Assembly (NCBI GenBank): GCA_016196035.1 | Contig: JACPYM010000074.1 | Span: 1 to 64,000, forward strand | Length of the DNA: 64,000 bases | Origin: Acidobacteriota bacterium | Lineage (GTDB): Bacteria > Acidobacteriota > Blastocatellia > RBC074 | Direction of reading: 5' to 3' | Part shown: positions 47,882 through 53,112 of the stretch, piece after piece | How positions within the stretch are numbered: the first letter of the stretch is position 1 | How the letters are laid out: the number at the start of each line of letters is the position of its first letter | Program-made: the position numbers and the translations under genes | Notes under the pieces: generated by a model | What the model saw: the letters and a program-made list of their open reading frames with translations, nothing else | What the model was told of the DNA's origin: nothing | The model's database searches: none

Positions 47882-48030
47882 GCGCTTCGCTCGCGCGTTC
47901 CACTGACCGGTGTCTCAAAAGGGGCGGATTAAGTGCTGGGCGCGACGGGCGAACGATAGCGTATGCGATGGGCAGAGGCAAGAACCGCAAGCCCTGTTCT
48001 TGCGTTGAGTTGCGCCTTTTGAGTTCGTCC
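47882..48030. other. intergenic region
   Basis: About 150 bases before the family 1 element, with no visible gene. Overlapping short frames have no coding character. Confidence 0.4.
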
Positions 48031-48126
48031 CTGGTACGCAGCGTTTCCAGCGTGCTCCCGGCCAAAGTGCCAACAAAAACCAATGCGCCACTTGCCAACA
48101 GCACACTGGAAGCGGTGCGTACCCAG
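48031..48126. repeat. inverted repeat family 1, copy B
   Basis: CTGGTACGCAGCGTTTCCAG at the left and CTGGAAGCGGTGCGTACCCAG at the right; more diverged than the other two copies (930-1035, 52989-53112). It ends eight bases before the scpB stop codon. Confidence 0.85.
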
Positions 48127-48134
48127 ATTCGCGG

Positions 48135-49840: not shown

Positions 49841-49894
49841 TCGGTGAATCAGTACGGTTTGGTGAAGGAGAGAATTGTCACTGCGCAAACAAGG

Positions 49895-50494
49895 TTAGGT
49901 TTTGTTGACCTCGAAAATCAGTTTGAGCAATTGATCTTCCAACTCGCGCCAGGTTTTTTGCGCATCGGTGCGGTATTTCGGATTGCTCAGGTCAACGGCC
50001 AGGCCATGTCCTGTGACGCTTGCTTTGAACCCGTAGTAAGTATCCTGAAGACTGTTCCATTGGCGTAGGAGAGGCGGCTGATCGCCAAAATATTCAATTG
50101 CCTTCCTGGAAACTGCAAGCAGGTTGGATAACTCGCGCATCAGGCGGTTCAGTTTGCGGCGCTGCTCATCATCAAGCTTTCCGGTGTCGCAACAAACCGA
50201 AAACTCGCTGAAAATTTCCTTGCCTTTGCTTTGGAAGTCGCGCAATTGCTCAATGACAAACCCTTTCTCGGCCCGTTGTTCGTCGGCGCGCTGCCGCGCG
50301 TAATGCGTAATCAGCAACGCGACGATCAAAGTCACCCCAAGCTGAAGCAAGGGGAGCAGGTCAAGCTCTTCTTTGAATTTTACCGGGATCCGCTGGCGCA
50401 CCAGCAGGGCGGCTAAGAATCCAGCCACAAACCAAGCCAGATAAAATGGCCGCTTACCGCCGAGCAACGTCCCGGATATATTTTTTAATTTCAT
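49895..50494 (-). CDS. two-TM protein with cytoplasmic helical domain (third gene of GHKL/STAS-like module)
   Basis: 199 residues. Two membrane segments, about 16-33 (FYLAWFVAGFLAALLV) and 47-64 (LLPLLQLGVTLIVALLIT), are followed by about 130 hydrophilic, mostly helical residues (ARQRADEQRAEKGFVIEQL, RRKLNRLMRELSNLLAVSR). No known domain recognised. Its start lies 41 bases inside the DUF4325 gene, so the two are translated together. The composition, like the two genes upstream, is more AT-rich than scpA or trpS. A membrane-bound output or sensor of the module is possible. Confidence 0.7.
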   Translation of the reverse strand: MKLKNISGTLLGGKRPFYLAWFVAGFLAALLVRQRIPVKFKEELDLLPLLQLGVTLIVALLITHYARQRADEQRAEKGFVIEQLRDFQSKGKEIFSEFSVCCDTGKLDDEQRRKLNRLMRELSNLLAVSRKAIEYFGDQPPLLRQWNSLQDTYYGFKASVTGHGLAVDLSNPKYRTDAQKTWRELEDQLLKLIFEVNKT

Positions 50495-50843
50495 CCACTA
50501 GCAAAGGTTCGTCAAAGCATTGTAATTCCAGTTGCGACAGCACGCGCGGCACGCCGTATTCCCGCGCCAAGCCACCAAAAGCTTCTTCCAGGAAGGAGGT
50601 AGCATAACCCTCCGCGCCATCCAAATTCACAAAGAGCTTTCGCCCTTGTTCCAGTGCTTCTTTGAATCGTGGCTTCAGGAGTTTTTCTCTAAATTCCTCG
50701 CCAGAGTGCGGGCCATCTTTTTTATAGCGCGCTCCCGGGAAACGCGAGAATTCCTCCGAAATGTTAATGATGATCAGAGGGGATGCCTCAACATGTGGCA
50801 TTGAAACCGCTAATTGGTTGTCCGTATTCATGTTTATGTTCAT
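50454..50843 (-). CDS. STAS-like DUF4325 protein
   Basis: 129 residues. Family blocks are ISEEFSRFPGARYKKDGPHS with GEEFREKLLKPRF, and LFVNLDGAEGYATSFLEEAF followed by GGLAREYG. The fold resembles STAS domains of anti-anti-sigma factors; Ser83 in YATSFLEE is where a phosphorylated serine sits in SpoIIAA-type proteins, although this equivalence is inferred. The start overlaps the stop of the GHKL ATPase gene by four bases (ATGA) and its end overlaps the next gene by 41 bases. The natural reading is kinase plus STAS substrate, as in partner switching. Confidence 0.85.
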   Translation of the reverse strand: MNINMNTDNQLAVSMPHVEASPLIIINISEEFSRFPGARYKKDGPHSGEEFREKLLKPRFKEALEQGRKLFVNLDGAEGYATSFLEEAFGGLAREYGVPRVLSQLELQCFDEPLLVDEIKKYIRDVARR

Positions 50844-51886
50844 GTGGCTACCTCAATCAATTTTCCTGCTGGTGAGGCTATTTCCCAGTACCACAAAGTG
50901 CCAACGAACTCAGTTTTTAATGACCTAAGATCGTTCGTACCAACCTTGGCAAATACATCGTTCGTAATCACAGTGAGGTTTTCGACTTTCTCTTTCATCG
51001 ACAGTTCATAAATCATCGGAATGCCCTTCCCGCGATTTTCCAGACCGGTGCTCGATCTAAGCTGCCCCCTGAGAAGATTGCTAAGAAAATCAAGGTTGTC
51101 TTTAATGCCCAAGCGCTGGGCAAATTTCTTCAATCCGGTCATGGTCTCCCCAACACTACGGAATATTCCTACGCCGTTATCAACGAAGGTAAAGCACGTG
51201 CGGTTCCGGTTTGGACAATAGGCCGATGTCCACCACTGTTCGGCATGCTCCCTTTGCCCTTTGGCGTGATTGTGAGTATTAGCCATCAACTCAATCAGTA
51301 TGCGATAGAGGTCTTGATGCTGTTGATCCTGCCCATAAAGCTTCTCCATTGCAAAACTCTTCAATGAAGCGGCAATTTTTGGCTCTACACGGTAGTTTTG
51401 TTTACGAAAGATATTGCCAGCGTCATTTGACCGATAGACTGGCACATTTAACTTCAAGTACTCGCAAATCCCCGAATCCAAAAACATTTGCCTTTGCTTC
51501 GGGTCCTTTGGGAGCCAGCCGGAACTTGCGGTCTTACGATAGCGCGGATCTGCCAATACGCTTATGAATAAAGTGAGCGCTTCAGGTGTTTGCGCAACAA
51601 CACTTTCGTGATTTACCTCAATCTTCCCGTGCTCGTGCAATTCACGTCTGACTTCAGCAATAAACTTGCAGAAGCCTTCAGGGTTATCCAACAACGAAAA
51701 GTTTTCTGGGGCCTGTAAGTAGTGCGGCTTGAGACGCGCAAAACGCCTCAGTGTTTTAACTCGGCCTCCTTGCTTTGGTGAATGCCCTGGGACACGCGCA
51801 CCCCATTCGCCTCGGCGTTTCAAATACCGCTTCTGCCTAATTCTCATTCCCTCTACCCACTGTGAGGAAGTGTAGAGCTTTTTCAA
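50840..51886 (-). CDS. GHKL-type ATPase/kinase-like protein
   Basis: 348 residues from a TTG at 51886, supported by AGGAGGT about ten bases upstream. The N-terminal 55 residues are very basic (RIRQKRYLKRRGEW), possibly nucleic-acid binding. The C-terminal half is a GHKL nucleotide-binding domain: N-box ELMANTHNHA (Glu199, Asn203, His207), G1 box FVDNGVGI (Asp236), G2 box GLENRGKGIP (286-288). No dimerisation or phosphoacceptor histidine region is seen, so it is not a standard sensor kinase; it resembles RsbW/SpoIIAB-type or other stand-alone GHKL proteins. First gene of a coupled three-gene unit with DUF4325 and a two-TM protein. Confidence 0.85.
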   Translation of the reverse strand: MKKLYTSSQWVEGMRIRQKRYLKRRGEWGARVPGHSPKQGGRVKTLRRFARLKPHYLQAPENFSLLDNPEGFCKFIAEVRRELHEHGKIEVNHESVVAQTPEALTLFISVLADPRYRKTASSGWLPKDPKQRQMFLDSGICEYLKLNVPVYRSNDAGNIFRKQNYRVEPKIAASLKSFAMEKLYGQDQQHQDLYRILIELMANTHNHAKGQREHAEQWWTSAYCPNRNRTCFTFVDNGVGIFRSVGETMTGLKKFAQRLGIKDNLDFLSNLLRGQLRSSTGLENRGKGIPMIYELSMKEKVENLTVITNDVFAKVGTNDLRSLKTEFVGTLWYWEIASPAGKLIEVAT

Positions 51887-51962
51887 TTATCTAAGTACCT
51901 CCTATCTGCTGATTCAAAGACGGTGCCGCGCATTATAGTCCTCAAGCTCAGTAAATACCCAA

Positions 51963-52946: not shown

Positions 52947-52988
52947 TGGCTCATTCTTGCCGAGATGCCTTTTGTGTGCAACCCGCAA

Positions 52989-53112
52989 CCTGGGTACGCA
53001 CCGCTTCCAGCGTGCGGTCTCGGCGGCGAACGAACTGATGCCGAAGGAAAACCCTCCGGTATCAAGCGGGCTGACGCCGAGTCCGCACGCTGGAAGCGGT
53101 GCGTACCCAGGT
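52989..53112. repeat. inverted repeat family 1, copy C
   Basis: CCTGGGTACGCACCGCTTCC at the left and GGAAGCGGTGCGTACCCAGG at the right, with a loop of some 50 bases. Homologous to 930-1035. Translations of all copies share an artefactual ARWKRCVP-like string, a trap for gene callers. Confidence 0.92.

Follow-up and report, generated by a model that had tools for sequence, protein, structure and literature searches.

A widespread, mobile cassette of a kinase, a DUF4325 protein and a membrane protein, related by sequence to VapKSC

Introduction

The 64,000-nucleotide stretch of an Acidobacteriota genome analysed here (contig JACPYM010000074.1, positions 1 to 64,000; hereafter the window) raises the question of what three overlapping genes lying between trpS and scpA do together. 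In order along the minus strand, these genes encode a kinase (K), a DUF4325 STAS-like protein (S) and a membrane protein (M). An initial annotation, made from the sequence of the window, took them for a partner-switching module with a membrane-bound third component. A close point of comparison is VapKSC, composed of the STAS-GHKL kinase VapK, the STAS antitoxin VapS, which is phosphorylated at Ser48, and the PIN toxin VapC (Chambers et al., EMBO J 2026, PMC13373217). VapS inhibits VapC, an S48E phosphomimic abolishes this inhibition, and the vapKSC operon protects against phage Bas42 (PMC13373217). ssDNA activates CapK, a related kinase that carries an N-terminal HTH; its partner CapS represses the operon that follows and has a wHTH at its C-terminus, such that CapK and CapS form a DNA-damage-controlled transcriptional regulator (PMC13373217).

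Results

Gene layout and insertion between trpS and scpA

The three genes are arranged as first annotated (Table 1), on one strand and with overlaps of 4 nt between K and S and 41 nt between S and M. The TTG start assigned to K has a counterpart in a related cassette from a genome of the same family, where the kinase begins with GTG and has the same opening residues, (V)KKLYTSSQ, as the window kinase. The GC contents of K, S and M are 0.474, 0.485 and 0.513, compared with 0.57-0.61 for scpA, scpB, trpS and the next gene, and the cassette forms the most AT-rich 2-kb stretches of the entire window (GC 0.49 vs a mean of 0.581, SD 0.023). The comparison of codon usage with the neighbouring genes gives the same picture, with GC3 values of 0.52-0.62 in the cassette and 0.69-0.79 around it. 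Searches of the cassette for a sigma-70-like promoter and for Rfam RNAs returned none.

Table 1. Positions in the window of the cassette, its domains and the candidate phospho-acceptor codons
Feature	Position	Strand	Basis or remark
Inserted block, trpS/scpA spacer	49889..51962	-	Cassette absent from spacer in 8 relatives
Gene K, kinase, 348 aa	50840..51886	-	ORF call; TTG start preceded by AGGAGG
K basic N-terminal extension, helical, residues 1-54	51725..51886	-	Net charge +15 in first 54 residues
K STAS-like domain, residues ~55-145	51452..51724	-	AF2 secondary structure; Foldseek STAS matches
K GHKL ATP-binding domain, residues ~158-339	50870..51415	-	E199/N203/H207, DNGVGI 236-241, RGKGIP 285-290
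Gene S, DUF4325 STAS-like protein, 129 aa	50454..50843	-	PF14213 E 4.1e-11; AF2 pLDDT 92.7
Thr82 codon of S	50598..50600	-	Aligns with phosphorylated Ser48 of VapS
Ser83 codon of S (site initially annotated)	50595..50597	-	Pro or Ala in VapS proteins
Gene M, 199-aa membrane protein	49895..50494	-	Two N-terminal TM segments

Horizontal acquisition, initially raised as a possibility, is demonstrated by the relatives that lack the cassette at this site. In all eight relatives where trpS and scpA lie side by side (G002-G009), K-S-M is absent from the spacer, which is nearly empty in G005, G004 and G002 and holds other short inserts in G006, G008, G009 and G007; in G003, trpS is interrupted by Ns and the length of the spacer is not cleanly measurable. 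G007 does possess a K-S-M cassette (kinase 55% identical), located on a different contig and not at trpS-scpA, and thus the cassette moves as a block. The window cassette is a horizontally acquired, AT-rich insert between trpS and scpA.

A three-gene unit that is inherited together

Since a plasmid search with K (P0001) gave a single match, on Leptospira p4, and one with M (P0003) gave no match, S was chosen as bait. We collected 80 loci from viral contigs and 80 from bacterial genomes in this way, supplemented by a few loci found through the K sequence or profile and by further plasmid and phage records; a collection of E. coli genomes gave no DNA match to a Pseudomonas cassette. A kinase lies directly upstream of S on the same strand at 152 of the 163 loci with sufficient flank, and a small protein directly downstream at 157 of 166, with overlapping borders in 76% (kinase/S) and 68% (S/downstream gene) of cases. 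The pairwise-distance matrices of the three proteins are correlated (K-S 0.66, K-M 0.79, S-M 0.59), where none of 2000 permutations reached such values and none exceeded 0.1. K-S-M is therefore a real and widespread three-gene unit that keeps the same order across phyla, plasmids and prophages, and the joint travel of the three families, on which the initial reading had been staked, is borne out by both the ordered block and the correlated distances. As the bait DNA patterns contained SFLEE/SFLEEAFG or SGEEFRE, conservation within these motifs of S is partly a matter of ascertainment; residues R39, G44, D75, G79 and R94, which lie outside the motifs, are conserved at 97-99%.

Domain architecture of the kinase

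K was originally described as a GHKL protein with three conserved boxes and a very basic N-terminus. Both features hold, but the description is amended by an additional STAS-like domain N-terminal to the GHKL domain. The AF2 model of K (96 sequences, pLDDT 88.9) is made up of the basic helical extension followed by these two domains, and Foldseek matches the N-terminal domain to the STAS proteins 4xs5 (probability 0.80), 2ka5 and 6jhk, with a weak Pfam STAS match in a kinase homologue (P0007, E 0.069). The boxes of the GHKL domain are near-invariant in 131 homologues (E199 99%, N203 99%, H207 98%, D236 99%, G238 99%, G288 100%), as is Trp218, which is invariant, and judging from these residues the ATP-binding site is intact, while the Pfam HATPase_c match on K is sub-threshold (14.2 of 26.4 bits). 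The nearest structure to the GHKL domain is SpoIIAB (1tid; VIA Z 12.9, 2.7 Å over 128 residues), and SpoIIAB and RsbW (Z 10.7) both rank above gyrase, CheA and sensor kinases, in keeping with the RsbW/SpoIIAB-type kinase first proposed.

The extension is itself a property of the family, with a median net charge of +14 over ~51 residues among the 131 homologues and a charge of +8 or more in 98% of them. In the AF2 model it forms long helices at residues 8-30 and 41-50, the stretch that connects them being modelled at low confidence, and no HTH was recognised in it.

The DUF4325 protein and its predicted phospho-acceptor

The assignment of the second gene to DUF4325 is confirmed by Pfam (Table 1), and the model of S consists of a single STAS-like domain whose last helix spans residues 113-128. 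Foldseek with S gave no significant match; in VIA, the best match was RsfB with a middling Z of 6.6, and the absence of VapS (9z7o) from the VIA matches carries no weight on relatedness. The link to VapS comes instead from the family assignment, as the VapS sequence of PDB 9z7o belongs to PF14213 at 4.8e-15, so that both proteins stand above the cut-off of the same Pfam family. An independent vapKSC-like operon (L251:859-2637) extends this comparison. It comes from a genome in the same class as a Pseudomonas reference and not from the phylum of the window, and it encodes homologues of VapS (E 2e-13) and VapC (E 0.001) together with a kinase that matches the K profile at 5.7e-15 across the STAS and GHKL domains and in which the basic extension was not seen. 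A search of plasmids with VapS found nothing.

The serine initially taken for the phosphorylated position, Ser83, appears to be one residue off. The S profile aligns with VapS without gaps over 55 residues, placing Thr82 on Ser48 and Ser83 on a proline, and the VapS-like protein of L251 has Ser in column 82 and Ala in column 83. Column 82 holds Ser or Thr in 136 of 148 homologues (12 have neither), and Ser occupies column 83 in 147 of the 148 members of the clade. For these reasons (the alignment to Ser48, the serine of L251 and the 136 of 148 homologues), Thr82 is the better-supported predicted acceptor, with Ser83 possibly serving instead.

The membrane protein

The two-TM character first noted for M is upheld, with segments at ~16-34 and ~44-62 preceding a cytosolic region that is helical and charged. 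Among the third proteins, 146 of 156 show a clear hydrophobic segment at the N-terminus, and the remaining ten a weaker one. These proteins fall into a two-TM group, to which the window protein belongs, and a larger, mostly phage-borne group that usually has one N-terminal TM segment. Compared with Pfam, 116 M homologues gave no family, single odd matches aside, and none matched a PIN family. When the PDB was searched with the M profile, only coiled-coil and influenza stalk proteins came up, and we rejected these matches as compositional.

Where the copies reside

In non-redundant viral loci, 51 genes were examined as the nearest upstream neighbours on the same strand; they encode Peptidase_S24 (15), HTH_3 (12) and CI repressor (7) domains, these being overlapping counts with which the PHROG counts agree. 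In the isolated Marinobacter phage AS1, the operon lies beside the repressor region, and the annotated Cro/CI gene is on the other strand. Four P2-like prophages (L067, L071, L072, L079) carry the cassette between a large protein at the gpA position and the portal gene Q, where the gpA assignment is based on Pfam Phage_GPA in one upstream neighbour and, for the 765-aa protein of L071, on size and place. The interval between gpA and gpQ of P2 is a hotspot with validated antiviral cargo (Rousset et al., PMC9122126). The copies at the prophage hotspot and beside repressors mostly encode the one-TM form of M. Plasmid copies are found near MazEF, RelE or MNT-HepT pairs and an antirestriction gene. 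The flanks of chromosomal copies vary widely; some of the genes there encode defence proteins or recombinases, and we claim no enrichment for them. Positions linked to phage defence are common overall, and the chromosomal neighbours are just sparsely defensive.

K-S-M is recognised neither by PADLOC-DB 2.0, where no model matches the cassette beyond marginal, partial hits, nor, for the third gene, by Pfam. The best PADLOC hit (PDC-M65A, E 0.001) was dropped as a lead given that it spans just 49 residues, and no mention of PDC-M65 was found in the open-access literature searched.

Discussion

By the sequences of K and S, K-S-M is a sister of VapKSC, while the criterion of a PIN nuclease as third gene sets it apart from VapKSC itself. 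Both are three-gene operons with homologous STAS-GHKL kinases and DUF4325/STAS proteins bearing Ser or Thr at the phospho position, and M sits at the gene position of VapC. They differ in that the third gene of K-S-M encodes a membrane protein with one or two TM segments, K has the long basic extension, and S forms a distinct clade (R39, SGEEFRE and SFLEEAFGGL motifs). The partner-switching module with a membrane third part that was originally suggested is supported, at this level, by the co-travel of the genes, the SpoIIAB/RsbW-like kinase and the membership of S in the Pfam family of VapS. CapK and CapS likewise pair a STAS-GHKL kinase with an adjoining STAS substrate in an immune or mobile setting; unlike them, S is a single STAS-like domain with no wHTH, and K-S-M is not placed as a regulator upstream of another immune operon. 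No HTH was recognised on K, where part of the N-terminal extension is modelled at low confidence. The likeness to lambda RexAB and P2 old/tin is one of genomic position only, behind a CI repressor or between gpA and gpQ, and the components are different. RexB is also a membrane protein.

We consider it probable that K-S-M is a mobile, toxin-antitoxin-like phospho-switch, the sister of VapKSC in which a membrane protein replaces the PIN nuclease. In the resting state, S would bind the cytosolic part of M and hold it inactive. Following VapKSC, DNA damage or phage infection would activate K, probably through nucleic acid bound at the groove between the STAS and GHKL domains and/or at the basic extension. 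With ATP, K would then phosphorylate S at the start of the second STAS helix (Thr82, possibly Ser83), and phosphorylated S would release M, both steps being modelled on VapKSC. The freed M would act on the inner membrane and bring about growth arrest or death of the infected cell. The direction of the kinase reaction, its activator and the release step are thus inferred by analogy, and the topology of M and its position in phages are what suggest an effector that damages the membrane. Weighing against this reading are the 12 S proteins with neither Ser nor Thr in column 82, the middling structural match of S to STAS proteins, the lack of a matching PADLOC model, the sparsely defensive chromosomal neighbours, and the fact that the hotspot and repressor settings are those of prophage copies, mostly with one-TM M proteins.

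The main alternative, which we regard as unlikely, is that M is the input. As a sensor or anchor in the membrane, it would bind S and/or K and pass on a signal from the envelope (e.g., phage adsorption or depolarisation), with S, phosphorylated or free, acting on another target in the cell. In partner-switching and stressosome systems the third component is often a sensor, and the cytosolic part of M resembles a coiled coil, in which no toxin fold was recognised. Against this, M sits exactly where vapKSC operons have vapC, the gene of the toxin that VapS releases, and the flanks, which vary from locus to locus, revealed no additional conserved gene downstream as a target. Less likely again is a regulator of prophage or plasmid lysogeny or of stress, one that tunes a CI-type repressor or a host stress response upon DNA damage and has no part in defence. 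The many copies directly behind CI/S24 repressors would fit such a role, as would the DNA-damage-controlled regulation of transcription by the related CapK and CapS (PMC13373217), but the 129-aa S consists of a STAS-like fold only, without a wHTH or another part for binding DNA, and the copies in the P2 hotspot, on plasmids and on chromosomes, including that of the window, mostly have no adjoining repressor. A classical anti-sigma/anti-anti-sigma module with an unlinked sigma factor as its target is very improbable. In its favour, the GHKL fold of K is closest to those of SpoIIAB and RsbW, with an intact ATP site. Against it, the window copy is flanked by trpS and scpA and has no sigma factor gene beside it, the neighbour families listed for the homologues include no recurrent sigma family, and a cassette carried by phages and plasmids is more readily seen as self-contained. 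Compared with the SpoIIAB-SpoIIAA and RsbW-RsbV switches, K-S-M shares the kinase fold and a STAS substrate whose predicted phospho-acceptor lies at helix 2, and differs in having no sigma factor, a kinase fused to a STAS-like domain, a membrane partner, and in S a DUF4325 and not a classical STAS protein by Pfam.

Returning to the phospho-switch, we are a little more inclined than not to see in K-S-M a system of defence or exclusion, mostly carried by phages and not described so far in the open-access literature searched, in which phosphorylation by K frees a membrane effector from its STAS antitoxin; if true, the third component would be a new family of small membrane effectors. DUF4325, a widespread and uncharacterised Pfam family, and a set of unnamed small membrane proteins would then be linked to a switch with the chemistry of VapKSC. 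This suggests that one kinase-antitoxin front end can drive a nuclease in some operons and a membrane protein in others, with temperate phages carrying the latter version as cargo.

Additional observations

The idea that every DUF4325 protein is part of a K-S-M unit was rejected, given that about half of the hits in an even phylum sample lie in single open frames of ~340-370 aa, and the membrane partner is therefore a feature of this DUF4325 clade and not of the whole family. In these longer frames (L199-L207, L233, L239, L250 and similar), the N-terminus looks HTH-like; the frames sometimes give a weak match to the kinase profile, and they could be single-chain kinase-substrate regulators. 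A further variant is found in Vibrio vulnificus FORC_036 (L175, 5956-6678), where a DUF4325 protein with Gly in place of Ser at column 83 and no annotated adjoining kinase precedes a two-TM protein of 126 aa, possibly a degenerate or alternative branch.

The trpS-scpA spacer is insertion-prone in this family (L178-L187), being either nearly empty or occupied by other short inserts or, in the genome of the window only, by K-S-M. In and around the region upstream of trpS lies a hairpin with 60-nt arms (window positions 52988-53112; 48026-48129 in a related copy). The genome contains 268 copies of its 22-nt arm end, GCTGGAAGCGGTGCGTACCCAG (136 forward, 132 reverse; 0 for the reversed control), often as pairs 80-100 bp apart, which points to a high-copy REP- or MITE-like element.
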